Shown here: positions 47-63,963 of the stretch, one piece after another
How positions within the stretch are numbered: position 1 is the first letter of the stretch
How the letters are laid out: every line of letters begins with the position of its first letter
Assembly (NCBI GenBank): GCA_003194525.1
Contig: NBIV01000024.1
Coordinates: forward strand, 248,001-312,000
Source of the DNA: Gracilariopsis chorda
Lineage: Eukaryota; Rhodophyta; Florideophyceae; Gracilariales; Gracilariaceae
Direction of reading: 5' to 3'
DNA: 64,000 bases
The notes under the pieces: model-generated
Database searches by the model: none
Told to the model about the DNA's origin: nothing
Seen by the model: the letters and a program-made list of their open reading frames with translations, nothing else
Translations under genes and position numbers: made by a program

Positions 47-1965
47 CTATCCACGAGAGATTAAATAGTCTTCAAAAAAAGTAGGGCGGCCGTGAAGGTT
101 GAAGTGCAACGCCCTCAGGGAGGGATTTCTGGTACTTGATCGTTTTCCCGATATTATCGGTTGTGTAGTGTTTATATGAACTACGCCCCACAATGGTGGG
201 TATGGACACGTGGGACACGGTTTTGGGTCAATTGGCGGTTGGCCACAGTAGTAGATGTTACCACGAAATGTGGAGTATTTTAGATAATACTATTTATTAT
301 TTTCACACCCATTTCTGGGAAGCTAGTACTTAGTGCGACGGCGCACTGCCGTCGCACCAGTAAACCTTCCCCAACAAGGGACCCCAACCTGGGGAATTGG
401 CTCTAGTTGTTGCCGCTTGCGCGCGTGCTCTACTCCTCCTTGGAGGGAAACGCTGTAAACCACGGGACATCTAACCCCCTTGCACATCTAAAGAGGCCCA
501 TCCTTGGGAGTATAATTGTTCCAATCACATTGGTGTTTCGCCCTGTATAGGGAGTCCTGTCCACCGGCATTGCCGTATTTGTTCGTCGCTCTTGCGACAC
601 ACCCTCGCCCACTCTTCCTCCTTTCCCTTCACTCTCCTCCTTTCCCGCTCTCAGGGTAGTACATCCCGCTACCCGCGGCCCTCCGGTGTACACCCACTCA
701 CACTTCCCCACTCACGTGGAAACATACCTCTACTGAGGATCACACCCCGCTCACGCGGATACCGATTCTTCGCCTTCACCTCCCTGCGCAAGTCGCGACA
801 GGTGTCCCTGGTCTTACAAACCGGCTTTGCCGTGACACCTCTGGGAGGGCTCTACCCAACTGGTTTCACCTCGTGAGAGGAAGATCCCGAACGTCTTTCG
901 GTGTTTTTCCCCTTTGGGGCATTGCACCACAAAGGTAGCGTGATATTTGGTTGCCATAAAGGCATGAGCTTATGTTATGCAGAAGTAGAGAGGAAAGATA
1001 AGGAGACCCTAGTGGTGCTTGTAGGACACGAAGTTCGCGTCTGAAATCAGTTGTGCTCCAGTACATCTTCACTTCCTTGAAAGCCCATTCAACAGTTATG
1101 CGTCCCGATGACATAGCAGTTTTGAAAGCGCTTTGATCAGCATTCAGTTGAGATCCTTGGAATGGAACTTTTAGGTAGTTTCTCTTGTTGAATCCGCTAT
1201 TGCCATGCATACAAAACTGGACATCATCCCAATGCAGCGCTGTTTCTAATTGCTCGTCAATTTCAGACCTAGCGTACAACGTCCAGTCATGTCTTCTACC
1301 TTCCATGGGCCCATAATCATGAAGAATGGTACCACCGGGTGTAGTAACGGCTTGAAACTTTAAAGCATGTGTTTGTTTGTGCCTATTGTATACCACATTT
1401 TGAAGCCCTTAGTCATCAGGACGAGCAATTTTCCACACATTTCCATCAATAAATCCAATGCAGTTGTGTAATGCGTAGGTTTTATTCTATACTACTGCAA
1501 AGCACCTATTGGCATGTTGCTGTATATACTCTGGATGCAGTGGGCCGGTGATTAGGTTTTCGTGTTCAATAAAAAACGAATCAATGCTTTCCCAAAATAT
1601 CTCACTTAGTTTTGATGCATGTCTGCGAAAAATGACCTTTCGATCTGTATATCTGTTGGGCGTAGCAAGTCTACTGAGGATGATGCAAGTGGTAAGAAGG
1701 GAGTTCGTTTGTAACGGTTACGTGCTGTTTTGTATAAAGGTGGTGAGCATATGACGCTCGTCAGTTTCTCCATGTCTGCTTTAAGAAACCTAAAATGAAG
1801 TAGACATGTTTGATCACTCATAGAAGATAACACGTTCGCAAAGGTTGTCTGTGATATAAGATTGGTTTTCAATACGGCTTGCGAGTAATTTTTGAGTACG
1901 GACGATATTGAAGTACTGCAGGCAGTGCCTGTCAATGTTTTTGGAGATGCAGGAAATGAAGACAT
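47..1965 (-). pseudogene. Harbinger-type DDE transposase pseudogene, split by a solo LTR
   Basis: Reading the minus strand from 1965 gives an N-terminal part with the motif LLHFRFLKADMEKL, then a frame change near 1606. A catalytic core follows: CIGFIDGNVWKIARP, then VVYNRHKQTHALKFQAV, GPMEGRRHDW and VEWAFKEVK. These are the DDE_Tnp_4 / HARBI1 landmarks (first Asp in FIDG, the HD pair, the Glu in VEWAF). In-frame stops lie near 1470 and 1408. The frame ends in ISRYL at the LTR boundary; joining across the LTR and one copy of its 5-bp duplication gives a natural C-terminus HGRPTFFEDYLISRG and a stop at 47-49. The transposase was therefore already in place when the LTR element inserted. Dead by stops and frameshift. 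The family assignment rests on motif recognition only. Confidence 0.8.
100..931 (+). mobile_element. Solo LTR of the hairpin-tiled chromovirus family, TSD AAGGT
   Basis: Begins TGAAGTGCAACGCC and ends GCATTGCACCACA, the same termini as the LTRs of the complete element at 52451-63958. Flanked by a perfect 5-bp direct repeat AAGGT at 95-99 and 932-936, so it is a simple insertion later reduced to one LTR by LTR-LTR recombination. It is 832 bp against 807 bp for the young LTRs and has many substitutions. Most short hairpins are kept with changed loops. Short open frames inside it are not genes. Confidence 0.95.
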
Positions 1966-16304: not shown

Positions 16305-17619
16305 TGAAGTACAACGCCCTCAGAGAGGTATTTTTGGCCCTTGCCATATTTCCCAAATGCTTTGGTAATGTAGCAATTGCATGAACTACCGCCCAAAAAT
16401 AGTGGATTGGACACGTGAGACACGGAAGAGACAGTTAGTGGTTGGCCACAGTAGTGGGTATGAACCACCAATGTGGAGTAATTTTCGTTATTTATTTTTA
16501 TTATTTTACACGCATTTATGGGAGGGTTAGTACTTAGTGCGACGGCAAATTGCCGCTGGACCAGAAAAAACTTCCCCAACATGGGACCTCAACCTGGAGC
16601 ATTGGCGCTAGACCTCGCCCCCTTCGCGTGCTCTCTACTTTTCCTCGGAGGGAAGTACCGTATCTTACGGGAAGTCTACCCCCTTTGCCTGTCTGAAGAA
16701 CCCCATTATTGGGACTGTTTCTCCAACTGCTTTGGTGTTCGTCTTTGTATAAGAGTTCCTAACCGACACTGCCATTTGCATCCGTCACTACACTCGTGAC
16801 TCAGTTTACTCTTTCCTTCTTCCCTTCGCAGTGTGGCCTTACCTGTAGGAGAATGACCATTGGGCAAGTGAGGTAATGTGAAGGAACCAGAGGCCTGAGC
16901 TGACAAAGGTCGGATCATTGCTGGATCGTCTGCTCCCTATAGCCAGGTCGGGTGAAGGTGAAAGAGATATGGAAACCTGCCGAATGCCAGAGGACTGTCA
17001 TCTCAGCTGTATTTATGTAGTAATTTTAATTAATTCTTTACGGTCGTTCCCGGACGTCAGAGTGCCTTGTCGACCATATGGGATGGCTCAAGTGCCATTA
17101 AAGACAAGCAAAATTGCACTCGTGTTGCACCCGTATGTAGTTTGTAGACGCCAAAGCCTTCCAAACCATCGCTACCATTCTCCCGACCGTAGAAACCTGA
17201 AATAGCGCCCGCCTATTAGGCCTCGCTGCCATTTGGTGCGCACGTCACCAGCATACACAATGGACTGTCACCTCAGTGCCAGGCTCTCTACCGCTTCTAC
17301 CTCTCAGTAGATTACTACTCAAGTTTGCCAAAGGAAGTAGTATTCTACTACATTACCGTTGCCTGCGGCTCTTCCTTGTACTTCTCACTTCCGTGAGAAC
17401 CTTAACTCTCTCTAAGGCACTCCTTCACACACACCGCTTCCATGGATACCCGATTTTTGCCTCAAAGTTCCTCAGAAAACTGCGACGGGCACTCTCGGCC
17501 TTACAAGCTGACATAGCTGTGATACATCTGGGACGGCTCTACCTAACAAGGTTCACCTCTAGAGGGGAAAGATCGCAACCGTGTTTTGGTGTTTTTCTGC
17601 TTACATGCCCTGCTTCACA
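16305..17619 (+). mobile_element. Degenerate LTR of the hairpin-tiled family, with internal insertion
   Basis: Starts TGAAGTACAACGCCCTCAGA and ends near TGCTTCACA, and aligns along both ends to the LTRs at 100, 49561, 52451 and 63152. Only fragments are conserved (TAGTACTTAGTGCGACGGC, CCTTACAAGCTG). About 450 bp of unrelated sequence sits at roughly 16850-17300. No target duplication is visible (CTCTA versus ATAAG). It is the most diverged family member here and the best material for comparing arms and loops: several hairpins persist with changed sequence (16353-16365, 16702-16713, 16784-16800). Confidence 0.8.
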
Positions 17620-49560: not shown

Positions 49561-50385
49561 TGAAGTGCAACGCCCTCAGGGAGGGATTCTGGGTACTTGA
49601 ACGCTTTCCCGATATTATCGGTTGTGTAGTGTGTGTATGAACTACGCCCAACAATGGTGGGAATGGACACGTGGGACACGGTTATGGGTCAATTGGCGGT
49701 TGGCCACAGTAGTGCATGTTGCCACGAAATGTGGAGTATTTTAGTTAATATTATTTATTATTTTCACACCCATTTCTGGGAAGCTAGTACTTAGTGCGAC
49801 GGCGCACTGCCGTCGCACCAGTAAACCTTCCCCAACAAGGGACCCCAACCTGGGAAATTGGCTCTAGTTGTTGCCGCTTGCGCGCGTACTCTACTCCTCC
49901 TTGGAGGGAAACGCCGTAAACCACGGGACATCTAACCCCCTTGCACATCTAAAGGGACCCATCACTGGGTGTATAATTGTTCCAATTGCATTGGTGTTTT
50001 GCCCTGTATAGGGATACTGTTACCGCCATCGCCGTTCGTCCCCGTCGCTCTCGCGACTCACTTCGCCCTTATTTTTCTCCTCTTCACCCTTTCTTTTCCC
50101 CTTTTTAGGGTAGCACCTCCCGCTATCCGCGGCCCTCGTGTGCGCATCCGCTCACACACCCCCACTTACGTGGAAACATACCTCTACTGAGGATCACACC
50201 CCGCTCACGCGGATACCGATTCTTCGCCTTCACCTCCCTGCGCGAGTCGCGACAGGTGTCCCTGGTCTTACAAACCGGCTTCGCCGTGACACCTCTGGGA
50301 GGGCTCTACCCAACTGGGTTCACCTCGTGAGAGGAAGATCCCGAACGTCTTTCGGTGTTTTTCCCCTTTGGGGCATTGCACCACA
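49561..50385 (+). mobile_element. Solo LTR of the hairpin-tiled family, no matching TSD
   Basis: TGAAGTGCAACGCC to GCATTGCACCACA, 825 bp, similar to the solo LTR at 100-931 in the 5' half and to the young LTRs in the 3' half. The flanking pentamers differ (CAAAC before, GAAGT after), unlike the other solo and the full-length copy. So it probably arose by recombination between LTRs of two different insertions, or one flank was rearranged. Confidence 0.93.
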
Positions 50386-50505
50386 GAAGTAAAATCAATC
50401 GCTTGATCTGTCTATCTATCTCCTGGCTCTGCAGAGATTTCAATTGCTCTTCCCGTAGCGTTTGCCTGCTAACAACTTCGTTTTCTTGCACCTTTGTTTG
50501 CTTTT

Positions 50506-51873: not shown

Positions 51874-52450
51874 ATGGACGACCAGCAGAAGCGCGCGCCC
51901 TTCCGCCAGCTCTACGCCGCGCCGGCCGTGCCAGCCTCCTCGTCAGACTCAAACTCGCTCACATCCTCCGCCTCTCCTCCGAGCAATCCCCGCCGACAAC
52001 CCCTCCGCCGACACCGCCGCCGCACCCGCCGTCGCCGCGGCACGCGCCGCCGCCTCCGCACACGTCGTTTGACGCAAAAACCATCGAGACCGAGCCTGAG
52101 CCCAAGCCCGAGCCTGAGCCCAAGCCCGAGCCCGAGTCCGAACCCGCGTCTGAGCCCAAACGACGGCCCGTTGCGCGCGCTTCGCCGACGTGTTCGCCGC
52201 GTGCAGGCGATGACGCGGCGTGCTCGGCGACGTTAAGCGTGGAGACGTCGGCGTCTTGAGGCCTGCGCCCAGACACGGCGCCAGCCACGCGCACCGGCGA
52301 GTCGTGCCCCTTTTCTGACGAGGACACGGTGCGGCCGTCTTCGCCGCGCACTTTGCAGCAGGTGTACACGCTGGATGACTCGCTGACGTCTGCAACACTG
52401 CTGCGCGTGGCGTTGGTGGACGACGGCGGCATAAAAGCGTGGGAATCTGG
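51874..52450 (+). pseudogene. 5' part of an ORF interrupted by the 11.5-kb retrotransposon
   Basis: ATG 51874 opens MDDQQKRAPFRQLYAAPAVP. After a frame change near 51990 the sequence is coherent in the next frame: LAHILRLSSEQSPPTTPPPT, a Glu-Pro-Lys-Pro repeat at 52083-52160 and SPRAGDDAACSATLSVETSA, with a TGA at 52257. It continues GLRPDTAPATRTGESCPFSD, LQQVYTLDDSLTSATLLRVA, LVDDGGIKAWESG up to the LTR. Removing the element and one TSD copy continues the same frame at 63964-64000 (DAVELASRRARP). The frame change and TGA could be lesions or unrecognised introns. Function unknown. Confidence 0.5.
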
Positions 52451-53257
52451 TGAAGTGCAAAGCCCTCAGGGAGGGATTCTGGGTACTTGAACGCTTTCCC
52501 GATATTATCGGTTGTGTAGTGTGTATATGAACTACGCCCCACAATGGTGGGTATGGACACGTGGGACACGGTTTTGGGTCAATTGGCGGTTGGCCACAGT
52601 AGTGGATGTTGCCACGGAATGTGGAGTATTTTAGTTAATTTTATTTATTATTTTCACACCCATTTCTGGGAAGCTAGTACTTAGTGCGACGGCGCACTGC
52701 CGTCGCACCAGTAAACCTTCCCCAACAAGGGACCCCAACCTGGGGAATTGGCTCTGAGCTTTACCGCCTCCGCGTGTTCTCAACTCCTCCTTGGAGGGAA
52801 GCACCGTAGTGTACGGAAGTTCACCCCCCTTGCACATCTAAAGGAGACCCATCATTGGGAGTACTAATTGTTCCAATCATATTGGTGTTTCGCCCTGTAT
52901 AGGGAGTCCTGTCCACCGGCATTGCCGTATCTACTCGTCGCTCTCGCGACCCACTCGTCCTTCCTCTTTCCCCTTTTTAGGGTAGCACCTCCCGCTATCC
53001 GCGGCCCTCGTGTGCGCATCCGCTCACACACCCCCACTTACGTGGAAACATACCTCTACTGAGGATCACACCCCGCTCACGCGGATACCGATTCTTCGCC
53101 TTCACCTCCCTGCGCGAGTCGCGACAGGTGTCCCTGGTCTTACAAACCGGCTTCGCCGTGACACCTCTGGGAGGGCTCTACCCAACTGGGTTCACCTCGT
53201 GAGAGGAAGATCCCGGACGTCTTTCGGTGTTTTTCCCCTTTGGGGCATTGCACCACA
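52451..53257 (+). repeat. 5' LTR
   Basis: 807 bp, TG...CA ends. Contains the longest hairpin of the LTR, GTGCGACGGC / GCCGTCGCAC, at about 52686-52710, in the part likely to be transcribed as R/U5. More than a dozen further mini-hairpins are present (52499-52511, 52848-52859, 52937-52950, 53148-53158). Confidence 0.97.
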
Positions 53258-53260
53258 AAG

Positions 53261-53280
53261 TGGTCTCCCGACCTAGAATC
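53261..53280 (+). other. Primer binding site (tRNA-Tyr-like)
   Basis: TGGTCTCCCGACCTAGAATC begins 3 nt after the LTR. Its reverse complement ends in CCA and fits a tRNA 3' end: partial T-loop GATT, T-stem strand CTAGG, acceptor strand TCGGGAG, discriminator A. That acceptor implies a C1:G72 first pair with A73, the combination characteristic of eukaryotic tRNA-Tyr. The tRNA identity is inferred. Confidence 0.75.
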
Positions 53281-53362
53281 GGTTTTTGCTTTCCCTCTTA
53301 CGAGGTTTGTTTTCATTCACCGGAAGTTCCGTGATCGTTTCCCGTCGTAACGGTATTTTCTC

Positions 53363-55537
53363 ATGTCGAGAAATCCCTCCGACGCGGAGCCAGTGGTTAC
53401 GCGTAGTCGCTCCCGCGACAACGCGGACACTTCCGAAGTTCGGTTCGTACCCCGTATCCCTATACGGACAAGTTCCAGCCGTGCTGGCGCCGCTTCATCG
53501 CGGAATGATACCCCCGACCGGGAACCCCGGAACCTCCTTTTGCCCTCGTTATCACCCCCGCAGGGGAATGCAGCATCGACTCCGGCTGTTGCCGCAGTGC
53601 CCCAGGCACCCCGGCCTGCTCCCGCTGTCGCGGCTTCAAGCCCCCGTGGAACGGGCGATAACACCCCCCAGGGGACTTCCCTGGAATCCCAGGTCCGCGC
53701 TCTGTGGACCGCCCATGACACCCTTGTAGGGGAACTAAAATCCCTCCAAGAGGTGGTCTCGGCAACCCCCGTAAAGGAGGTCGCCGAGGAGCTCCGTATT
53801 TTACGGTCTGACGTCAACTCCGTGTTGGAGAGTTTGGGACAACCCGCCGCCTTCATCGAAGGAGTTGAAGCCCGATTTGATCGGATTGGTGCCCGCCTGG
53901 AGACGCTGGAGCAGTTCGTCCTCATGGACAAACCATCCCCGGGTGATCCGGTAAACGAGGCATCGCACAACGACCAGCTTGCTGGGAAGAAGAAACGCCG
54001 TCACCGACGGAAACATCACCGAAAATATTCGGACTCCGATTCTTCGACATCGTCGGACTCACCCCGAAACCATTCGGTTAGCTCGAGCTCCTCGGACTCC
54101 GACTCGGAGGACGAGAAGCGAGGCTACTCCTCCCGCTCGAAGCGGTCATCGGCCACTGAAGGTGTGGTCCGAACCCGCCAGAAGGGGAGAAGACACCCCG
54201 GTCTCCGGGAATTGAAACCGACAAACCCGGATTACCGGAAGCTTTTATCATACCGGTACTACCGGCTTGAAGATTCGTCACTTGGACGTACGCCCCGTGG
54301 TACGGGAAAGGTGCGAGAATGCATTAAGCGAATGCAGCTCTCGCTCCGCAACCAGTATTTTACTGGAGAGGACCCAGTCCTAGTACTGGATTTCCTATCC
54401 CGCTTTGTAGCGGAGGCCGATATCCTCGGTATGAATGAGGGACAAGCCTATTTGGCTTTACCGTATTTCTTACGGGGAGTGGCCGAGGACCAATACACCT
54501 CGGTCCGAGGATCTTCTCGCGCCTCCGAGGGAGGAGTTACTTGCTGGCCGGAGGCTGTGCAGTATCTTCTGCGCTCCTACGCCACCAACACCGCTATTCA
54601 GCAGGCTATCCTCGCTTTGCGAGATACACGCCAGCGTGCTGGAGAGACCGAGACCGATTACTCGGTGCGCCTTAACAAGGCTTTCCACATATGTGGTAAC
54701 GTATACCCCGCTGGGGAGCGCAGTACCATGTTCATTGATGGTCTTGACCCGGCAATCCGGAGTTTAGTTACCCGTTATCGGGAGGACAAGCGAAGGATCA
54801 CCTACCTCGAGCTGGTCCAACACGCTCGAGCGGAAGGGGATGCACTTCGTGCAAGAACTCCGAACAATCGGTCTAAATCCGCCAAGGCGTTGTTGCTGGA
54901 AAGCGAAGCTTCCTCTCTCCCGCTCACCGCGGATGGGAACCCTGGACAGGGATTTGATACCGTGCATTTAGCGCAGGGGGATGGTGTGTCGATACCCACC
55001 AGTGAGTTACCGTCAACGACGGAGATGACCCATGATACGGGAACAGAAGATCCCGTTCTATACGGTGGTAACAGTCGGGTTCAACCCCAACGACTCCCAT
55101 TTTCAAACGGTCAATCCCGTTATCAACGGCCTGGATGGACTGACACCCGCCCTGCGGTTCGCTTCTCCGATACTCGGAATAATAATCCGCGTGTCGCGGT
55201 GCTGGCTCTCATTTGCCACCTGTGCTACGCCCATGGCCATACCTCTCCTCAGTGTATTTGTTCACTGAAGGATATGGCCAAGGTGGTGGCAAATTATGAG
55301 GCCCTCACTCCAGAGGAGAAACGTTCCGTCCCGACGGCTTCCTACCTCCGTGCTAAAACGGACTTTTCTCACGCCCTACCACAGACCCCGCGTGCGCGGC
55401 AAGCTTCATACACCCCGATTCGGGAGATCACGCAACCATCCGTTGCAACCCCCGCTTATGCGGATAGAAACCCCCGTCAACGGGATGAAGCACTCGTTGT
55501 CGAGGAAACCAACCCACCGCCGAAGGCGGAAAACTAA
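53363..55537 (+). CDS. gag: Gag polyprotein of the chromovirus
   Basis: 724 residues from ATG 53363. N-terminal third disordered and Pro/Arg-rich; residues about 140-180 form a coiled coil (ELRILRSDVNSVLESLG, EARFDRIGARLETLEQFV). A basic stretch (GKKKRRHRRKHHRKY) and a Ser/Asp run follow. The retrotransposon capsid-like region is at about 310-490 (RNQYFTGEDPVLVLDFLSRF, YALRSYATN-type helix, ALRDTRQRAGETETDYSVRL). One zinc knuckle, CHLCYAHGHTSPQC, sits at 618-631 (CX2CX4HX4C). Ends AEN-stop at 55535-55537; pol overlaps in the -1 frame. Confidence 0.93.
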   Translation: MSRNPSDAEPVVTRSRSRDNADTSEVRFVPRIPIRTSSSRAGAASSRNDTPDREPRNLLLPSLSPPQGNAASTPAVAAVPQAPRPAPAVAASSPRGTGDNTPQGTSLESQVRALWTAHDTLVGELKSLQEVVSATPVKEVAEELRILRSDVNSVLESLGQPAAFIEGVEARFDRIGARLETLEQFVLMDKPSPGDPVNEASHNDQLAGKKKRRHRRKHHRKYSDSDSSTSSDSPRNHSVSSSSSDSDSEDEKRGYSSRSKRSSATEGVVRTRQKGRRHPGLRELKPTNPDYRKLLSYRYYRLEDSSLGRTPRGTGKVRECIKRMQLSLRNQYFTGEDPVLVLDFLSRFVAEADILGMNEGQAYLALPYFLRGVAEDQYTSVRGSSRASEGGVTCWPEAVQYLLRSYATNTAIQQAILALRDTRQRAGETETDYSVRLNKAFHICGNVYPAGERSTMFIDGLDPAIRSLVTRYREDKRRITYLELVQHARAEGDALRARTPNNRSKSAKALLLESEASSLPLTADGNPGQGFDTVHLAQGDGVSIPTSELPSTTEMTHDTGTEDPVLYGGNSRVQPQRLPFSNGQSRYQRPGWTDTRPAVRFSDTRNNNPRVAVLALICHLCYAHGHTSPQCICSLKDMAKVVANYEALTPEEKRSVPTASYLRAKTDFSHALPQTPRARQASYTPIREITQPSVATPAYADRNPRQRDEALVVEETNPPPKAEN
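55489..55537 (+). other. gag-pol overlap, candidate -1 frameshift region
   Basis: The pol frame opens after a TGA at 55486-55488 and overlaps gag by 49 nt in the -1 register, with no ATG before the protease. The last gag codons are GCG GAA AAC TAA. The GGAAAAC immediately before the stop is only a partial match to the X XXY YYZ slippery rule (A-site AAC to AAA is allowed, P-site GAA to GGA is poor). Hairpins follow (for example TCCCC TTT GGGA at about 55548). Mechanism unproven. Confidence 0.5.
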
Positions 55538-58500
55538 CTGAGGGAGTCTCCCCTTTGGGAGAGGCGTCCTCAAAAACGAGGCTGTTGGCGCCCGAGGCGT
55601 CCTCGCCTCGCTCCCCGGTGAAAGTCCTCTCGAGGAAAGACACCGCTGACGCGGACTCTGCGCACCTCGGTGTGTTGCGTCGCCCGTGGATACGGAGTAA
55701 AAATCCCCGGATTCCCGGTAGAGTCTTGGTCTTGGCCAAGCGCAATTATAAGGTCTATGCCGACCTTGGCCTTGACCCCCAGTTTATGGTGAGGTTTCTC
55801 ACCGTCCTGGATACAGGTGCAGGCCCCAACTTTGTCGTGGAATCATTGTTACCCCCGCTTGTGCGGTCGCGTATCCGCTCTGACGCGGTCCCCGACATTT
55901 CGGATGCGAACAACAATCCGTTACAAACGGTGGGCACAGTGGACCTCGTCGTGAGACTTGGTACATCTGTGGTGAAGTTGGACTTCATCGTTTGCCGTTC
56001 ACTGGCAGCACCAGTCATACTGGGATGTGATTACTGCGACAGATTTGTCGACGCAATCAGGCCCCGCCTCAGGCGTGTAGAACTTGACGACGGATCGTCG
56101 GTTCCGATTGTTCGCCGCCCGCTAAAGCGGTCCTCTCGGAAACAAGTTCCGCTCCCTGCTGCGCAGGAACCACCGCCCGCGTCCCGCGAGTCCACCAAGC
56201 TCCGCGTCGCTGCCTCGGTTTCTATACCGGCTGAGTCCCAAGTCTGGGTACAGGTAAATTCCCGTCAACACGGTCTTCGGGTTATACAACCCCTCGCCTC
56301 GTTGTACGAGAAATCCCAGCTGGCGCTGGCTAATGGAATTGTCTCCATTTCCCCGGATGTTCCTTTCCGGATATTGGTTGCCAACCTTGGCAAACACCCC
56401 CAGTATCTGGTCAAACACCAAGTAATTGGGAGTGTAACCCCCCATCCTATGGGAATGCTGCCAACGAAGATGACAGCCGCCGATGTACTCGGAGTTACCA
56501 CCTCTTCTGAGGAGTTCACCCCGCCGTCCAAAGACGTCAAGTCTAAGGAGGGGGAGGAAACCGCTACTTCAGCGTCGAACATACCGAGTAACTCGGAATT
56601 GCGAGCCACACCTGTTCCACAGGACAATGCTCCATCGAACAACGACCGGATTGATCCGGAAAAAGCACTTGAAGCGCTGGACGTTAGCCACATGCCAGAG
56701 TCGCACCGCCACAAACTCCGTACCATGTTAAGGGAATTCACCACAATATGGGATGGCTCGCTTGGCGAGATTAATGCAACGGAACACCGGATCGATTTAA
56801 TCCCCGGTGCGCGACCGGTTGCACAACCCCCTTACAGGGCAGGTCCGAAAGCTCGGGAAGAGGAGCAGTCCCAGGTGGACAAGATGCTCCGCGCAGGTGT
56901 GATTGAGCCCGCTCAATCGCCCTGGGCATCCCCAGTTGTACTGGATTTAAAGGCTGACGGAACCTGGAGGTTCTGTGTCGACTACCGCCGGCTCAATGCC
57001 GTGACTGTTAGGGACACGTACCCCATCCCTCGTATGGACGAGTGCATTGACTCCCTTGGAGACGCCACCGTGTTCACGGCCCTTGATGCCAATTGGGGAT
57101 ATTGGCAAGTACCTGTCAGACAGGAGGATCGCGACAAAACCGCATTCACCTGCCATGCAGGAACGTACCGCTTCAAGCGGATGCCATTTGGGTTAACCAA
57201 CGCCCCCGCCACCTTTCAGCGTGCAGTAGATATTCTACTCAACCGCTTTAAGTGGCGGAGTTGTCTGGTCTACCTTGATGATATTATCATCTTCTCCAAC
57301 TCGTTGGACGACCATCTCACTCACGTCCGAGACGTGCTGACCGTACTCCGCGATGCGGGAATTACCCTCAAGTTGAGGAAATGCGAGTTTTTCACAGATA
57401 CTGTGAAGTATCTGGGTCACATTATCCGTCCTGGACGGTTAGCGATCGAGAAAGCTCGAGTCAAATCCCTCGTTGAGGCGAAAGAACCCCGTACTCAAAC
57501 GGAACTGCGCTCCTTTCTGGGGCTGGTCAACGTCTATCGACGGTTTATCCCGAACTTTTCGGATACTGCAGCACCCCTGAACGCGTTGTTGCGAAAGGGG
57601 AACCCCCCAAAACTGGGAACATTTACGCCCGAGCAATCGGAAGCTTTTAACTCCTTAAAGGAGGCTGTCACATCAGCACCAATCCTACATCTCCCAAAAC
57701 TTGGGTTGCCATACTCCGTAGATACGGACTCGAGCGACTACCAAGTCGGGTGTGCTCTTTTTCAAACCACCCCCGAGGGGGAACGACATCCAATTGGTTA
57801 TTGGTCACGTTCGCTCAATGTTCATGAGCGGAACTACTCCGTATCGGAGAAAGAGTGCCTCGCCGTCGTATGGGCGATGACCACTCTGCGCCCCTACCTT
57901 ATGGGAATTCACTTCACCGTGTACACGGATCATTCCTCATTGAGGTGGTTGATGAATATCTCCGACCCGTCGGGACGCCTCATGCGCTGGAGACTCCGCC
58001 TCGCGGAATATGACTTTCAAGTCATTTATAAAAAGGGTGCGCAGAACACTCAGGCCGACGCTTTATCGCGGTTACCCACAAGTGGGGAAGCACTCCCAAC
58101 GGAGGATGATGAAGTCCCATGCTTCATGGCTATAGACCCGGATGATCCGGAACATGCCGTCGAGGCTAGGCCAGAAACCTGGGACGAGGAAGCTGATTTT
58201 GACGAACTACTCGCATCGCGAGATAAATCTGAGAACCCGTTACCGGGAAACTTTGTACCGGTATCACCGGAAGAAATGATCCGAGAACAATTCGGCGACC
58301 CATTCTGTACGAGAATTCGTGCCCGTATCAACGGTGGTGAAGATCTCCCTTTCGGGGTAAACGACAAAGGCTACCTCGTAAGAAAGGTCGAAGCCCGCCC
58401 ACAGATTGTGGTACCACATTCCCTGCAATCGCGGGTGTTACATCTATCACACTACGCCCCCATTGGAGGTCACCCAGGTGGGAGGAAACTCTACCTAACC

Positions 58501-61116
58501 CTGCGAAGGGATTTCTATTGGCCCGCAATGGCGGTGGATTGCTACGCAACTGTGCGGTTTTGTAGCGAATGCGCGAAGAATCGCGTCAAACTCCGCAAAA
58601 ATGCGAAGAAGATGAAACTATTCCCCGCAAGGGCGCCGCTCGAGTTTATCGCGATCGATATTCTCGGACCATTACTCACCACGAAACGTGGAAACAAGTT
58701 TCTACTTGTCATTACCGACCGCTTTTCTAAGCTGGTACGGACTGTCCCTCTTCGGAGGATAACCGCTCTCACGGTGGCCCAGGCTCTGGTGACGCACTGG
58801 ATTTTTGTCTACGGTCCCCCTGTAGAGGTGCTCTCTGACAACGGGAAGCAGTTCGTGAGCAAGTTCTTCCAGGATGTTTGTCGCATCCTGGATGTCAAGA
58901 ACTTGTTCACGACTACCTACCACCCCCAGTGTAATGGGCAAGTTGAACGGTTTAACCGGACGTTACTCGCGGCGTTACGTTCCTACGTCGCTGACCACCC
59001 AACGAATTGGGATCTCTACGCTGATGCGGTAACCTACGCGTACAATACGCAGGTACACCGGACTACCGGAGTTTCGCCATTCGAGTTAGTTCTATCTAGA
59101 ACACCCCCGCCTGTGGCGCTGGAACCCCAAGCTACCTTGGACAATTTCCCATCTGTGGGTATCTACCGGCAGCAATGGAAGCGATGGCTTTCCCAGCTGG
59201 TCCCCGCTGCGCGGAAGTCTATGGCACGGGCCCAAGCCGCTTACAAGCGGGATTTTGACGCTCGCGTGCGAGGAAAACCATCCCCGATTCGGGCAAATAA
59301 CTACGTCTTCATCAGGAAGGAATACTACAACCCGGAACGGGAGAAGCGTCACAAACTCTCGCCTGTGGCGGATGGACCCTTCAAGGTGATCTCTGTTAAC
59401 ACCGACACTGTCGTGGTAGAGATGGGGGACACGCACGAACGGATTTCCCGTGATCGTGTTGTCCTCGCCCCTCCTCCCTCGTCAGAGGTAGTCCTGGATC
59501 CAGGCAACCCCGTTTCTACGGACTCCGCTACACCGGAACAATCCGGGAGTACTAGACCTACGGTACTACCACACCCCAGCCGGGGACTCTCAGACCTACC
59601 GACTCTGTCGGACTCACCGGCTCAGCCGGGTAATTCGGGCCCCTCAGCGCCCGCCCCTACCACGTCTGCCCCACTGGCGCGCATCTATACCCGCCAGGCG
59701 GGGAATGTTATCCCTTATCCCGCCGCTCCGTCTAAGGAGGGGGAGGAGAACACTCGTTTTCGAGGAACGATATCACCGTCGCAACGGGAAACACACCGTA
59801 ACATACGGAACACTGACCGTGGAGCACGGAGTATGTCACGCGACACTAATCCCCCGTTCCCGGGCAGTGCTGTGCAACAGGAATCAGACGCACAGGCCCT
59901 GCAAAAGCGGCAAATACACCGTTTGTCCCGGAAAAACGAGAAGCCTCACTCCAATACCGCAGCAGCGGAAAGGCAATCGCCCGATGCCTCGAAGCCGCCG
60001 TTGGCGGAAGTCCCCGCGGAAGCGGTTCAATCAGGTCGATTAGACCCGCGCCCTGCGGAGAAGGGGCGCCCAGATACGCCGGCCTCACAGGGGAATACCC
60101 ACACCCCTCTTGGGGAAAAAGGCGGCCAAGCTGCAGTCGAAGCTTTAAGCCCTGGCTCGCAAGCACCGGAAACGCCTCCCGTCGTTGACGGAATCAAAGC
60201 CCCCGCTACGGGGAATAATTTGCGCCAACCCCCGCATCGCTGCGGCGAAGAACCGAGGAACTCGGGAATAACGCGCGCCATCGCACGCTCGAAACCGGTC
60301 GTACCGGACGCTGCTCCTCCTCACGGAGATGGTGCACTGCGCTCAGCGGCAATTCCCCTGAAAAGGGTGTCATCGGCACCTGCCCGGAACCCCCCAGAGG
60401 GGAATTTTGACCAAAATACCGGTGTACCGGAGTTAGCCCCAGGCAACCCGTCAGTAGCCGGGGACACCACGGCATCGCCGGAACGTATGGTGCAGAGCGC
60501 TCGTGCGCCTGGCAGGGAGGCGGTTTGCCACCCAATCACCGTGTCGCACGGGACCCCCCAGGGGATTGTGGAAATGCCGATCCCGCAGGAGCGGTCATCT
60601 TCCCGCAAACTCGCGGTTCGTGCGCTCAACCGCGAAGGCGGAACCCAAGTCCCCCGCCGACTGGCGGTTCGCCCGGCCTACCGTGAAGACGAAAACAACG
60701 ACACCCCTCTGGGGAACGACTTGCCGGTGAAAACCGTGGCACCACACACCCTCTTGAGGGATATTTTCCCGCATGAGCAGCGGCCACTAGGACAGCGCAC
60801 GGCAACGTCGGAGTTATCGCCGAACACCCTGCTAAGGGACATTATACCGCACCGCGGGCAACCCTCGCCAGGGATTACAACCACCACCCGGCACGGCCGG
60901 CAGGTCTACGAACGAGAGTTCGTAGTAGACCGACTTGTCGGACACACCTGGGACCAGGAGGGTATTCTACAATACCGCGTCCGCTGGTACGGGTACGACC
61001 CCAGTGGGGATACGTGGGAGCCAATGGAACACCTCCCACGGTCGCAGGTCGTGCGATACCACCGTCAAACGGGAACTGCAGCTCCAGCCACGCTGGTAAA
61101 TGCCCAAGTTGGGTAA
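55489..61116 (+). CDS. pol: Pol polyprotein (PR-RT-RH-IN-linker-chromodomain)
   Basis: About 1,875 codons; residue numbers are from 55555. Aspartic protease VLDTGAGPNF with DTG at 86-88. RT: WRFCVDYRRLNAVTVRDTYP, FGLTNAPATFQRAVDILL, YLDD at 573. RNase H: SVDTDSSDYQVGCAL (about 720) and YTDHSSLRWL. Integrase: HHCC zinc finger with HLSHYAPIGGHPGGRK and CSECAKN, then the D,D-E core (AIDILGPL Asp1035, LSDNGKQFVSKFF, NGQVERFNRTL). Unusually, about 490 residues of Pro/Ser/Arg-rich linker (about 1290-1780) separate integrase from the chromodomain at 1785-1838 (EFVVDRLVGHTWDQEGILQY, RVRWYGYDPSGDTWEPMEHL). A chromodomain usually targets integration to methylated-histone chromatin. No lesions. Confidence 0.95.
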   Translation, partial: STRCRGNQPTAEGGKLTEGVSPLGEASSKTRLLAPEASSPRSPVKVLSRKDTADADSAHLGVLRRPWIRSKNPRIPGRVLVLAKRNYKVYADLGLDPQFMVRFLTVLDTGAGPNFVVESLLPPLVRSRIRSDAVPDISDANNNPLQTVGTVDLVVRLGTSVVKLDFIVCRSLAAPVILGCDYCDRFVDAIRPRLRRVELDDGSSVPIVRRPLKRSSRKQVPLPAAQEPPPASRESTKLRVAASVSIPAESQVWVQVNSRQHGLRVIQPLASLYEKSQLALANGIVSISPDVPFRILVANLGKHPQYLVKHQVIGSVTPHPMGMLPTKMTAADVLGVTTSSEEFTPPSKDVKSKEGEETATSASNIPSNSELRATPVPQDNAPSNNDRIDPEKALEALDVSHMPESHRHKLRTMLREFTTIWDGSLGEINATEHRIDLIPGARPVAQPPYRAGPKAREEEQSQVDKMLRAGVIEPAQSPWASPVVLDLKADGTWRFCVDYRRLNAVTVRDTYPIPRMDECIDSLGDATVFTALDANWGYWQVPVRQEDRDKTAFTCHAGTYRFKRMPFGLTNAPATFQRAVDILLNRFKWRSCLVYLDDIIIFSNSLDDHLTHVRDVLTVLRDAGITLKLRKCEFFTDTVKYLGHIIRPGRLAIEKARVKSLVEAKEPRTQTELRSFLGLVNVYRRFIPNFSDTAAPLNALLRKGNPPKLGTFTPEQSEAFNSLKEAVTSAPILHLPKLGLPYSVDTDSSDYQVGCALFQTTPEGERHPIGYWSRSLNVHERNYSVSEKECLAVVWAMTTLRPYLMGIHFTVYTDHSSLRWLMNISDPSGRLMRWRLRLAEYDFQVIYKKGAQNTQADALSRLPTSGEALPTEDDEVPCFMAIDPDDPEHAVEARPETWDEEADFDELLASRDKSENPLPGNFVPVSPEEMIREQFGDPFCTRIRARINGGEDLPFGVNDKGYLVRKVEARPQIVVPHSLQSRVLHLSHYAPIGGHPGGRKLYLTLRRDFYWPAMAVDCYATVRFCSECAKNRVKLRKNAKKMKLFPARAPLEFIAIDILGPLLTTKRGNKFLLVITDRFSKLVRTVPLRRITALTVAQALVTHWIFVYGPPVEVLSDNGKQFVSKFFQDVCRILDVKNLFTTTYHPQCNGQVERFNRTLLAALRSYVADHPTNWDLYADAVTYAYNTQVHRTTGVSPFELVLSRTPPPVALEPQATLDNFPSVGIYRQQWKRWLSQLVPAARKSMARAQAAYKRDFDARVRGKPSPIRANNYVFIRKEYYNPEREKRHKLSPVADGPFKVISVNTDTVVVEMGDTHERISRDRVVLAPPPSSEVVLDPGNPVSTDSATPEQSGSTRPTVLPHPSRGLSDLPTLSDSPAQPGNSGPSAPAPTTSAPLARIYTRQAGNVIPYPAAPSKEGEENTRFRGTISPSQRETHRNIRNTDRGARSMSRDTNPPFPGSAVQQESDAQALQKRQIHRLSRKNEKPHSNTAAAERQSPDASKPPLAEVPAEAVQSGRLDPRPAEKGRPDTPASQGNTHTPLGEKGGQAAVEALSPGSQAPETPPVVDGIKAPATGNNLRQPPHRCGEEPRNSGITRAIARSKPVVPDAAPPHGDGALRSAAIPLKRVSSAPARNPPEGNFDQNTGVPELAPGNPSVAGDTTASPERMVQSARAPGREAVCHPITVSHGTPQGIVEMPIPQERSSSRKLAVRALNREGGTQVPRRLAVRPAYREDENNDTPLGNDLPVKTVAPHTLLRDIFPHEQRPLGQRTATSELSPNTLLRDIIPHRGQPSPGITTTTRHGRQVYEREFVVDRLVGHTWDQEGILQYRVRWYGYDPSGDTWEPMEHLPRSQVVRYHRQTGTAAPATLVNAQVG

Positions 61117-61307
61117 CGTTGCCGCGCGAGCGGAGAGCGAAAGGAAAGGATAACAAGACAAGGTCCGTCGAAGACGGGGAACTCAACCGAGAAGCACCGT
61201 TCTAAACGGGAAAGTTTATTCAAGGGAGCAGCTAGCTCCCCACAATACTACACTACACTAACTGGCATAGCCAGGGAAAGAAGAACCAGGAAACTGGACT
61301 AGAGGTT

Positions 61308-63095
61308 TCACTCACCCCCATCGTCCGGGGCGTAACCCCCAGCAAGGCGGTAGGCCAACGCGTCCGCCATGGTGGTGACATCCCCCGATACCTCGGCAGC
61401 GCTAAGACCGGCACCCCGGAGGAAACGTGCGATGATTTCGTTTTCATTCGCCGTCACCCCGCTGGGGATAGAAGGTCCGGCACTTGCCGTTGAAGGGTCA
61501 GCAGCCGGCTCGGCCGGAGATACCCCCTCTGGGACAGCTTCCGCGCTAGCGCCGGTTTCCTCTACGTCCATCTCCCCGGGTTCTTCCGGTTCGTTATCGA
61601 CCATTGGGTCATCCCTGCCGTATGCGCGGTAGTAGTCGTCAGAATCGACGTACCCCACCGGGTGGTCTTCCGGCACATGCCGGGGCGTATCGCGAAGCTC
61701 TCGCGCCTCCTCGGAGGAAATTTCCCGGAACTCCCAGGGGTCGAAGTAGATAAAATCCCCCGCAAGGGCGGTGTTTCTACCGAGTCCCGGACCACCGGTG
61801 TTACCGCTGCCGCCATCCAGACGACCGCTTTGCTCCAGCGGGACCTCACTCCAGCTAACGCTGTCGATGTACCCAAGTAATTGGAGGACCTCTTCATTGT
61901 TGGCCTGGCCCCCAAGGGGGATGCGAAGATCCAGGTTTCGGATCGCTGCCCGCACACGCGGTTGAAGGAACCAGAGACGATACTGGTCGTACGCCTCGTT
62001 GAGGATATAAGCCGCACTGCGGGCCGCCCACTCCGTAACCACTACGGACCACAACCCCGACCGGGGATCCTGCATGAGCAGCGAACCGAGGTACGTAAGT
62101 ACCGGCGGGAGTTCTATGTAGCACCCCCGGCAGGCTTCATGGAAGCGCCACCACTCGGGGAGTGCTACATACCGACCTAGTCGGTGAGGCGGCGCAATCC
62201 GCTCTATCTCCACGTTCTGATACGGGATAAAGTACCCGAATCGGGATCGCCAACGCCGCTCGTAGCGGATGAAGTTTTGGAGAAAGTTGGACCGGTATTG
62301 CCGGGGAAGGTACCTGAACTCCGCCCGAATAATCGGTCGCTCCCAGCAAAGGGCCTCTTGCCGCGCTGCGGGGAAATTCCTCCAAGCGAGGGTCTCGAGG
62401 CGGAACAGGTTCTCGCCGTACCCAATCTCCCCGCGAGTGCGGAAGTAGCTAACGTCGAAGCCAAACTCCGGTGGGACCGGTACATCGAATGGAGCCCGGC
62501 TCTGCCGTTGGTACGCCATCCGCGTCAACGCGGTCTGCGCCGCAGCGACGGTCTCGCCCGAGTTCCTTCGGAGGTGGTGACGCGGAATCGCAATCCGGTG
62601 ACGCCAATCCCACGATGTGGTGACTGCTCTGGGCAGATCCCCCGGAAGGGTGTCTGAACCATCCGCATAAGCGGCGACCAACCCCTCATTGAGGACAGCG
62701 ACCGGGTGAAACCACGGGGCAAGGCGCAGGCGCGACGCGTGATTCCGATTCATCGGGTTGAGCCCCACCAGGGTGTTGTAGGTTGGCCAGTTGGACACCG
62801 GAGTGGTTCCGGAGGACACCACCGAAGGTGGTAGTGCGAAGGGATGGTCGGCTGCAGCAGCCATATTCCCCGGTTGTACCGGATTTCGATCGCCCTGAGG
62901 CAGGGGAACTGACCGGAAACCGGTGGTGTACCGCCCGAGAAGTCTCGGCGGTTGGCTGTGGCTGTTGATATGGTTGTCGTCGTTCATTTGTCCCTTTTGG
63001 AGGGTGGCTGTTGTTGTCGTTTGTGTGCTTGATGACTCTGGTGCAGAGGGATTTACCGGAGAACCGGAGACAAAGCACGCGCTTTTATCACCCAT
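61308..63095 (-). CDS. Antisense ORF of the retrotransposon, 595 residues, unknown
   Basis: Opposite-strand frame between pol and the 3' LTR, ATG at 63093-63095 (57 bp from the LTR), stop at 61308, 191 bp from the pol stop. N-terminus Ser/Thr/Gln-rich; a compact central region (about 100-400) rich in Arg, Trp, Tyr and Phe (YFRTRGEIGYGENLFRLETL, FLQNFIRYERRWRSRFGYFI, YVALPEWWRFHEACRGCYIE); acidic Pro/Ser tail (NEPEEPGEMDVEETGASAEA) ending in a helical LAYRLAGGYAPDDGGE. No signal peptide, membrane segment or known domain. Length, ATG start, globular-looking core and lack of stops in a young element argue it is real. Extra antisense ORFs at this place are known in some plant gypsy elements; the role is unknown. 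Confidence 0.75.
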   Translation of the reverse strand: MGDKSACFVSGSPVNPSAPESSSTQTTTTATLQKGQMNDDNHINSHSQPPRLLGRYTTGFRSVPLPQGDRNPVQPGNMAAAADHPFALPPSVVSSGTTPVSNWPTYNTLVGLNPMNRNHASRLRLAPWFHPVAVLNEGLVAAYADGSDTLPGDLPRAVTTSWDWRHRIAIPRHHLRRNSGETVAAAQTALTRMAYQRQSRAPFDVPVPPEFGFDVSYFRTRGEIGYGENLFRLETLAWRNFPAARQEALCWERPIIRAEFRYLPRQYRSNFLQNFIRYERRWRSRFGYFIPYQNVEIERIAPPHRLGRYVALPEWWRFHEACRGCYIELPPVLTYLGSLLMQDPRSGLWSVVVTEWAARSAAYILNEAYDQYRLWFLQPRVRAAIRNLDLRIPLGGQANNEEVLQLLGYIDSVSWSEVPLEQSGRLDGGSGNTGGPGLGRNTALAGDFIYFDPWEFREISSEEARELRDTPRHVPEDHPVGYVDSDDYYRAYGRDDPMVDNEPEEPGEMDVEETGASAEAVPEGVSPAEPAADPSTASAGPSIPSGVTANENEIIARFLRGAGLSAAEVSGDVTTMADALAYRLAGGYAPDDGGE

Positions 63096-63139
63096 TTTCG
63101 TCTGGGAATCCTCCGCGCCCGCGGTCGTTTTCCCGTCTT

Positions 63140-63149
63140 AAGGGGGGGA
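63140..63149 (+). other. Polypurine tract
   Basis: AAGGGGGGGA two bases before the 3' LTR, the expected plus-strand priming site for reverse transcription. Confidence 0.85.
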
Positions 63150-63151
63150 TA

Positions 63152-63958
63152 TGAAGTGCAACGCCCTCAGGGAGGGATTCTGGGTACTTGAACGCTTTCC
63201 CGATATTATCGGTTGTGTAGTGTGTATATGAACTACGCCCCACAATGGTGGGTATGGACACGTGGGACACGGTTTTGGGTCAATTGGCGGTTGGCCACAG
63301 TAGTGGATGTTGCCACGGAATGTGGAGTATTTTAGTTAATTTTATTTATTATTTTCACACCCATTTCTGGGAAGCTAGTACTTAGTGCGACGGCGCACTG
63401 CCGTCGCACCAGTAAACCTTCCCCAACAAGGGACCCCAACCTGGGGAATTGGCTCTGAGCTTTACCGCCTCCGCGTGTTCTCAACTCCTCCTTGGAGGGA
63501 AGCACCGTAGTGTACGGAAGTTCACCCCCCTTGCACATCTAAAGGAGACCCATCATTGGGAGTACTAATTGTTCCAATCATATTGGTGTTTCGCCCTGTA
63601 TAGGGAGTCCTGTCCACCGGCATTGCCGTATCTACTCGTCGCTCTCGCGACCCACTCGTCCTTCCTCTTTCCCCTTTTTAGGGTAGCACCTCCCGCTATC
63701 CGCGGCCCTCGTGTGCGCATCCGCTCACACACCCCCACTTACGTGGAAACATACCTCTACTGAGGATCACGCCCCGCTCACGCGGATACCGATTCTTCGC
63801 CTTCACCTCCCTGCGCGAGTCGCGACAGGTGTCCCTGGTCTTACAAACCGGCTTCGCCGTGACACCTCTGGGAGGGCTCTACCCAACTGGGTTCACCTCG
63901 TGAGAGGAAGATCCCGGACGTCTTTCGGTGTTTTTCCCCTTTGGGGCATTGCACCACA
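63152..63958 (+). repeat. 3' LTR
   Basis: 807 bp, TG...CA, differing from the 5' LTR at 63162 (C for A) and 63771 (G for A) by eye. Its antisense strand is the only upstream sequence near the 61308-63095 ORF and would have to provide that promoter (inference). Confidence 0.97.
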
Positions 63959-63963
63959 TCTGG

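Follow-up and report, generated by a model that had tools for sequence, protein, structure and literature searches.

Why should a retrotransposon carry the same small hairpin some 300 times, inside its genes as well as between them? The question is raised by the element at 52451-63958 of a 64,000-nucleotide window from the red alga Gracilariopsis chorda (contig NBIV01000024.1, positions 248,001 to 312,000, forward strand; the window is the whole stretch analysed, and positions below refer to it). This element is one complete Ty3/gypsy retrotransposon with a chromodomain. An earlier account made from the letters alone, here called the sequence-only reading, had described its long terminal repeats (LTRs), leader and genes as filled with short inverted repeats. 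Scanning of the whole element yielded 191 inverted repeats with arms of at least 5 bp and loops of 2-6 nt, against 49.0 +/- 7.2 in 100 dinucleotide shuffles, the highest of which reached 66. When synonymous codons were permuted with protein and codon use kept (100 permutations each), the excess persisted in gag (47 vs 11.1), in pol (91 vs 26.2) and in an antisense open reading frame (ORF) described below (24 vs 8.3). Neither control, both of a kind proposed by the sequence-only reading, reproduces the observed number, and the hairpin tiling itself is well supported. The leader (105 bp) is too short for judging an excess. Of the hand counts given for gag at 53794-54534, the number of 17 for arms of at least 5 bp and loops of 2-5 nt was also obtained by the scan; the 21 with loops of up to 9 nt became 23 with loops of 2-9 nt and 29 with loops of 0-9 nt. 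A scan of the element against Rfam 15 returned 0 families at gathering score.

Host genes were said to lack such repeats, and host DNA bore this out. Six 4-kb stretches for which blastn listed no match to these element families contained 53 repeats against 57.5 (arms of at least 5 bp, loops of 2-4 nt). All ten stretches initially taken as host gave 143 against 95.7; among the other four, L025 and L026 are copies of the window family, while a related piece lies in L024 and a piece of 174 bp in L028. To the left of the element, CC-footed hairpins numbered 19 against 24.4 expected when three related LTR pieces were masked and 60 against 25.4 when they were not, the masked-out pieces holding 41 in 2075 bp. 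The first 49.9 kb of the window, in which related LTR pieces are included, contained 236 inverted repeats against 191.7. Since shuffles and host DNA both differ from the element, its coding and non-coding sequence can be said to be shaped into local hairpins. The description of an element filled with them holds for the excess, but not for its uniformity: density varies from 27 to 49 per 2-kb bin, and the excess is confined to one narrow geometry. In the pol of the window element, codon phase does not account for the hairpins, the three phases being evenly represented (29, 27 and 29); hairpins of a related family, F1, lean to one phase (18, 9 and 8).

The rule followed by the hairpins is four to five Watson-Crick pairs, a loop of 3-5 nt and a total of about 12-13 nt, with CC as the 5′ foot and GG as the 3′ foot. 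Examples found by the scan on the plus strand are CCGTA-TTT-TACGG (53794-53806; arm 5, loop 3), CCGTC-ACC-GACGG (53998-54010) and CCGAA-AATA-TTCGG (54019-54032; arm 5, loop 4). In the window element, CC-N(g)-GG was enriched mainly at g = 5 to 10, with peaks at g = 8 (209 vs 93) and g = 9 (207 vs 92). Further counts were pooled from three families, represented by the window element, F1 (locus L005) and F2 (locus L015). CC-N9-GG with all three inner pairs Watson-Crick occurred 106 times against 3.5, and CC-N8-GG with the first two inner pairs Watson-Crick 170 times against 13.2. At g = 9 little excess was left when either of the first two inner pairs was mismatched (16 vs 9.7 and 17 vs 10.1), and a mismatch at the third, which leaves a 4-bp stem with a 5-nt loop, still gave 51 against 10.5. 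Inner pairs were evenly enriched (AT 3.3-, CG 3.8-, GC 3.6- and TA 3.6-fold); mid-stem G.T and T.G showed hardly any enrichment (121 vs 114 and 100 vs 109). Arms beginning with CC and ending with GG, as noticed by eye before, were strongly favoured in 5/3 (arm/loop) hairpins (106 vs 3.1) and 4/4 hairpins (170 vs 12.9), whereas the reverse foot GG...CC was not (1 vs 3.4 and 23 vs 14.3). Pairing beyond the foot was avoided, the next pair being complementary in 3 of 106 hairpins of the 5/3 type (23.7 expected) and in 15 of 170 of the 4/4 type (42.1 expected). Stems of 5 bp preferred 3-nt loops, and loop bases were near random. The excess of CC-hairpins also withstands synonymous-codon shuffling (393 vs 49.7).

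Stability of folding might be thought to suffice as an explanation: local structure would hide the genomic RNA from guide RNAs, nucleases or RNA sensors, a role suggested for genome-scale ordered RNA structure in RNA viruses, and any stable fold would serve. Folding energy in 107 windows of 100 nt did lie below that of shuffles: the mean z was -1.01 for the plus strand and -0.95 for the minus strand, compared with values of 0.05 to 0.22 for two host sets. C-footed hairpins take up 35% of the window element and 5% of its shuffled versions (F1, 25% vs 4%; F2, 16% vs 5%). The geometry is nevertheless not the one that stability would select. GG-footed RNA stems are more stable than CC-footed ones (-6.11 vs -5.52 kcal/mol), yet they are little or not enriched; G.U nearly matches A-U in RNA (-4.1 vs -4.6), yet it is hardly enriched; and longer stems and loops of 4-6 nt are more stable, yet more than five pairs are avoided and 5-bp stems prefer 3-nt loops. 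Protection from small RNAs by folding energy, one of three explanations offered by the sequence-only reading, thus fits badly, and a shield of this kind is unlikely.

Along the window element, 297 non-overlapping C-footed hairpins were counted in 10.7 kb, i.e. 27.8 per kb or one per about 36 nt. Gaps of 7-12 nt between neighbouring hairpins were in excess (8 nt: 22 vs 8.6) and gaps of 0-4 nt were depleted (13 vs about 55 by a geometric estimate). At 52451-63151 the preferred linkers of 7-12 nt place hairpin centres about 19-22 nt apart, and spacings near 28-31 nt form a trough. Periodicity past the nearest neighbour was not found, the pair correlation being 2.2 at 19-22 nt and 0.4 at 28-31 nt and then scattering around 1.

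Tiling is limited to one Ty3 clade among the loci tested. Twenty reverse transcriptase (RT) loci were chosen for diversity by score from the top of the RT ranking; all belonged to F1 and F2, and all 20 were tiled (z 6.3 to 13.9). F1 and F2 share about 68% DNA identity with each other and about 67-72% each with the window element over aligned parts, and their pol proteins are 60-64% identical to that of the window element. A further family (L039 and L040; 71% to the window element) was also tiled, with 39 and 49 CC-hairpins against 4.3 and 5.1, so that four related families, including that of the window, carry the feature. L061 and L062, which represent two further families with the antisense ORF, had an excess that was no more than moderate, over 1.2-1.3 kb. 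Three other Ty3 loci of the same genome were untiled (L035, L036 and L038; 1 vs 1.3, 1 vs 1.3 and 1 vs 2.8 CC-hairpins), although they are Ty3 elements by Pfam with 29-32% pol identity and L036 likewise has a chromodomain. Four Copia loci were untiled as well (1 vs 1.6, 0 vs 2.1, 0 vs 2.0 and 0 vs 1.7). A mutation bias acting genome-wide, or a need common to retroelements, fails as an explanation because these other Ty3 loci, the Copia loci and clean host DNA are all at chance. That seven retroelement loci of one genome do without tiling also counts against a general structural shield. No relatives were found in viral and prokaryote contig collections.

A CC...GG hairpin is identical on both strands, and its direction can therefore be read only from flanks, loops and mismatches. 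On the plus strand of gag and pol, an A stood 3′ of the hairpin in 183 of 393 cases and a T stood 5′ of it in 76 of 393. The same preference, again on the plus strand of the element, was observed in the region of the antisense ORF (22 vs 9 of 52) and in the LTR (15 vs 4 of 28). The claim of folding on both strands is accordingly correct for the pairing, which is symmetric, but not for the flanks. As the hairpins keep the direction of the genomic RNA even where the coding strand is the opposite one, translation is not a likely target. The foot differs by family: it is CC in the window family and F1 and pyrimidine-C in family F3, and in F2 the preference for C lies one position further in, which makes the CC-foot count a weak measure for F2. 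In the 5/3 hairpins of F1 (L005), G precedes the foot in 61% of 36 cases, unlike in other families.

Hairpins of this kind could also act as single-stranded DNA. The entire element, including both LTRs, passes through complementary DNA (cDNA), and hairpins in the first strand might guide, protect or compact it ahead of second-strand synthesis, with nucleocapsid, RT or integrase as the binding protein. Strict Watson-Crick pairing suits DNA more than RNA, as an inner G.T costs about 2.2 kcal/mol relative to A-T in DNA and about 0.5 in RNA; the loss of G.T fits either DNA energies or a reader that is strict about shape. Among otherwise intact homologous hairpins, C.A mismatches on the plus strand, which are T.G on the minus strand, outnumbered T.G (36 vs 14), and a second count showed the same tendency (27 vs 11.3 and 6 vs 7.1). 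This excess of C.A over T.G, seen in loci of the window family, F1, F2 and F3, may hint at the minus strand as the folded one. A.C and G.T were, however, equal (19 vs 20), so that the wobble argument is only half an argument. DNA stability explains neither the CC foot (-3.90 vs -3.86) nor the avoidance of longer stems, and sites in DNA are inseparable from sites in RNA on the present sequence data. Action as single-stranded DNA is rated as rather unlikely.

The hairpins appear to be kept by natural selection, judging from comparisons of related sequences; these comparisons (divergence, double changes, LTRs, chance palindromes and base context) overlap in the sequences used and are not independent of one another. 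Stems in close subfamilies changed about five to seven times less than loops. Two relatives with about 94% and about 92% identity to the window element diverged from it in stems, loops and the rest by 0.021/0.114/0.058 (stem vs rest, p 8e-6) and 0.016/0.079/0.067 (p 7e-7). Against F3 the values were 0.190/0.357/0.280. The window also holds three related LTR pieces on the plus strand, at 49561-50390 (91% to the LTR of the element, 24 hairpins), at 100-934 (89%, 23 hairpins) and at 16305-16714, a diverged piece (75%) which is still tiled (9 hairpins) and has some compensated stems. The three comparisons possible among the element's LTR (807 bp) and the first two of these pieces gave 0.014/0.096/0.096, 0.017/0.093/0.115 and 0.018/0.095/0.129, and three comparisons with the older piece at 16305 gave 0.14-0.18 in stems, 0.40-0.45 in loops and 0.30-0.33 elsewhere. 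When sites were split by base context (A/T, lone C/G, CC or GG), stems were below outside sites in all 18 strata of six comparisons, with p below 0.03 in 9, many strata holding few changes. Transitions raise the chance that pairing is retained, and empirical control pairs were therefore used for double changes: homologous stem pairs in which both positions had changed remained Watson-Crick in 202 of 385 cases, compared with 1292 of 3419 control pairs outside hairpins, and retention was above control in all 12 comparisons. One such stem reads CCGCT-TCA-AGCGG in the window element, CCGTT-TCA-AACGG in F3, CCGAT-TCA-ATCGG in F1 and TCGCT-TTA-AGCGA in F2.

Chance palindromes (loops of 9-15 nt, any foot) served as a further control. 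Their stems diverged by 0.006, 0.070 and 0.070 in three LTR pairs, against 0.014, 0.019 and 0.020 in true stems, and by 0.070 and 0.043 between the window element and L025 and L026, against 0.023 and 0.024. A G-foot set compared with L026 was as low as the true stems (0.020, 150 sites). The control is thus clear for L025 and mixed for L026 and the LTRs; that the first LTR pair gives no support is partly due to the 291 bp that are identical between these LTRs. Singletons in recent copies were also mixed, with 0.0113 in stems and 0.0219 elsewhere in F1, and 0.0337 and 0.0384 in F2.

The same copies bear on a mutational origin, in which RT would perfect near-palindromes by fold-back or template switching, as the sequence-only reading had proposed. 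Copying would enrich the four pair types about equally, as is observed, and in yeast template switching is reported to homogenise short inverted repeats (PMC8604942). Of 52 differences shared by F2 copies, 13 gain an any-foot hairpin against 3.4 at random, which selection would give likewise. A process that makes hairpins needs gains near losses among single-copy differences, and this is why the idea is disfavoured: among 506 such differences in F1 and F2, 9 gain a CC-hairpin (5.2 at random), where balance needs some 20-30, and 21 break one (33.6 at random). For any-foot hairpins, gains numbered 27 against 35.0 at random and losses 83 against 93.0. The 92 shared differences included 3 gains (0.8 at random) and 5 losses (5.8) of CC-hairpins. 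Stems moreover evolve more slowly than loops beyond what correction of one arm by the other would yield, one-mismatch hairpins, the expected decay products, are scarce, and other Ty3 and Copia loci are untiled. Among 42 distinct hairpins with at least two stem differences, 11 were ungapped with differences in one arm only, and these could be due to template switching or to point mutation. As a whole, a mutational origin is very improbable.

The best reading is that the hairpins are selected parts of the element and not a by-product. Textbook theory linking enrichment to scaled selection and substitution rate would put scaled selection near 3.4 for a 30-fold excess and would have stems change at about 0.12 of the neutral rate; for the first of the LTR comparisons (0.014/0.096) the value is about 0.15 and rests on 6 changes. 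Strict pairing, fixed height, specificity of foot and flank, a free loop, restriction to one clade and drift between families together look like protein recognition. We therefore propose, with a probability of roughly 40%, that the hairpins are selected, oriented docking sites on the genomic RNA or cDNA for a co-evolving protein encoded by the element. Each hairpin would be a small, largely independent site defined by shape on the single-stranded element (genomic RNA or first-strand cDNA), with 4-5 pairs and no mismatch in its stem, a tight loop free in sequence, CC/GG at the foot and no pairing in the flanks, the next site often being 7-12 nt away. The putative protein would measure the helix, Gag or nucleocapsid being its most likely identity and the antisense-ORF protein a less likely one. 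Many weak sites per genome might single out the nucleic acid of the element for packaging and make it compact, like the dispersed packaging signals of some RNA viruses, and since a single site would add only a small gain in transposition, any one could be dispensed with while others arise and density stays constant. At the same rough odds, the whole genome, coding and non-coding, could be seen as a ladder of about 300 mini-hairpins of one shape and free sequence, in which a co-evolving protein would read shape and length (4-5 Watson-Crick pairs, CC foot, 12-13 nt), a barcode by geometry that would mark self and constrain codon choice. Packaging of RNA or cDNA is accordingly the best-fitting of the three explanations offered earlier, with a protein reader as a conjectural part of it, and the earlier interpretation as a whole is partly supported.

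Several observations weigh against this proposal. Selection could act through a host protein instead. A Pfam search with gag gave no match, and a model of the antisense-ORF protein computed by AlphaFold from a six-sequence alignment was poor (mean pLDDT 39). Packaging signals, in the descriptions consulted, carry a recognition motif in the loop, and the loops of the element are random. No stem conservation was seen between F1 and F2 (0.298/0.266/0.298), nor was it significant in four comparisons of close copies (97-99.5%); the latter result is expected if most changes there postdate insertion. Small sets of chance palindromes in the LTRs were as low as true stems (0 to 0.025; C foot 37-48 sites, G foot 37-46). 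Finally, hairpin positions turn over between the main families, only 5-16% of stems being kept whole (control 0.2-1.7%). Turnover together with conservation is the pattern that weak selection on many exchangeable sites would give.

The second candidate reader is the product of the antisense ORF (61308-63095, minus strand, 595 amino acids), which lies between pol and the 3′ LTR and was identified from the ORF list and by conservation. It matched F1, F2 and window-family loci as well as proteins of Gracilariopsis chorda and Gracilaria domingensis; an annotated Gracilariopsis chorda protein agrees with the genome at 100% over residues 1-491, in keeping with this species as the very probable source. 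An alignment shows it conserved in several Ty3 families of Gracilariales at 36-60% identity. As far as seen it appears to travel with the tiled clade, 6 kb having been fetched for each of the untiled Ty3 loci. No Pfam match above cut-off was obtained. The match to this ORF breaks near residues 480-491 in several members of a single family, among them the copies G000 C231, C2 and C219.

The remaining anatomy is that of an intact element. The 5′ LTR (52451-53257, plus strand, 807 bp) was recognised as a direct repeat of the 3′ LTR (63152-63958, plus strand); it has TG...CA ends and carries 26 non-overlapping C-footed hairpins (32 per kb). A likely primer-binding site, TGGTCTCCCGACC, judged from its position 3 nt behind the LTR, is found at 53261-53273 (plus strand), and a polypurine tract, likewise assigned by sequence and position, directly precedes the 3′ LTR at 63140-63151 (plus strand). 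Gag (53363-55537, plus strand, 724 amino acids) contains a CX2CX4HX4C knuckle read by eye. Pol (55555-61116, plus strand, 1853 amino acids) comprises, by Pfam, RT (RVT_1, residues 466-624), RNase H (690-819), the integrase zinc finger (H2C2, 953-1010) and the integrase core (rve, 1027-1124), i.e. the Ty3/gypsy order with integrase 3′ of RT and RNase H, and a chromovirus-like chromodomain at its C-terminus (PF00385, residues 1789-1830, E 2.3e-9). A 1-kb piece of pol had 40 scored matches in the 91.3-Mb genome, including the window itself, all 99-100% identical; the element is one of many near-identical copies. The LTRs at 49561-50390 and 52451-53257 are identical in a 291-bp 3′ part and differ in the remainder, which suggests recombination or conversion between LTR subfamilies. 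One copy of the window family, L055, looks by eye like a nested insertion, the sequence around it resembling the RNase H part of a different Ty3 element. An ORF at 866-1396 (minus strand) overlaps the terminal portion of the related LTR piece (100-934) and reads like a putative Harbinger-type transposase.

The element is flanked by a 5-bp target-site duplication, TCTGG, at 52446-52450 and 63959-63963. Target sites bear on a last alternative, in which integrase would target palindromic hairpins and the element would offer its own sequence as a safe landing place. Plant LTR elements are reported to target palindromes (PMC6911290). Of 20 LTR starts that were fetched, 7 were internal 3′ LTR starts; together with the window copy, the others gave 14 distinct upstream flanks of the window family. 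These showed by eye no CC...GG pattern and no strong base preference, and this alternative is extremely improbable.

With known Ty3/gypsy chromodomain elements the element shares TG...CA LTRs, a 5-bp target duplication, gag, the order RT-RNase H-integrase and the chromodomain; hairpin tiling and the conserved 595-amino-acid antisense ORF set it apart. In the genomic RNA of yeast Ty3, from the same superfamily, stable and dynamic regions are reported to form a mosaic, with structured stretches dispersed along the molecule, and the accessible part of this description contains nothing resembling a uniform array of mini-hairpins (PMC11381356). Like the genome-scale ordered RNA structure of RNA viruses, the tiling extends over the whole genome, including coding sequence, and lowers folding energy below that of shuffles. 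It differs in its single 12-13-nt geometry, strict Watson-Crick pairing, CC foot, limited length and oriented flanks, and its enrichment does not follow RNA stability including wobble. A comparable array was not found in the open literature, searched by titles and the beginnings of abstracts, most subscription literature lying outside that search. If the docking-site reading holds, a whole retroelement genome is under two codes, one for protein and one for a repeated shape along a single strand, and the element offers a natural, well-powered test case for how a protein may recognise self by geometry, since each element has about 300 sites and copies are many, spread over at least four families. 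The closest parallel is with the dispersed packaging signals of single-stranded RNA viruses, where many similar stem-loops likewise lie along the genome (PMC6281560). The 297 hairpins share a recognition feature, namely foot and length, but no loop motif, their loops being near random and diverging freely. In MS2 the recognition motif is described in the apical loop and a bulge (PMC6281560), whereas in the element loops are free, foot and length are fixed and about 297 sites occur in 10.7 kb, with a putative reader. The tiling points to a molecular reader of the folded element genome, and one resembling a coat protein would explain both the geometry and its family-specific changes. On that reading the element would also inform the evolution of dispersed packaging signals, and help to judge whether weak selection at single sites produces enrichment and conservation to the extent predicted by theory.

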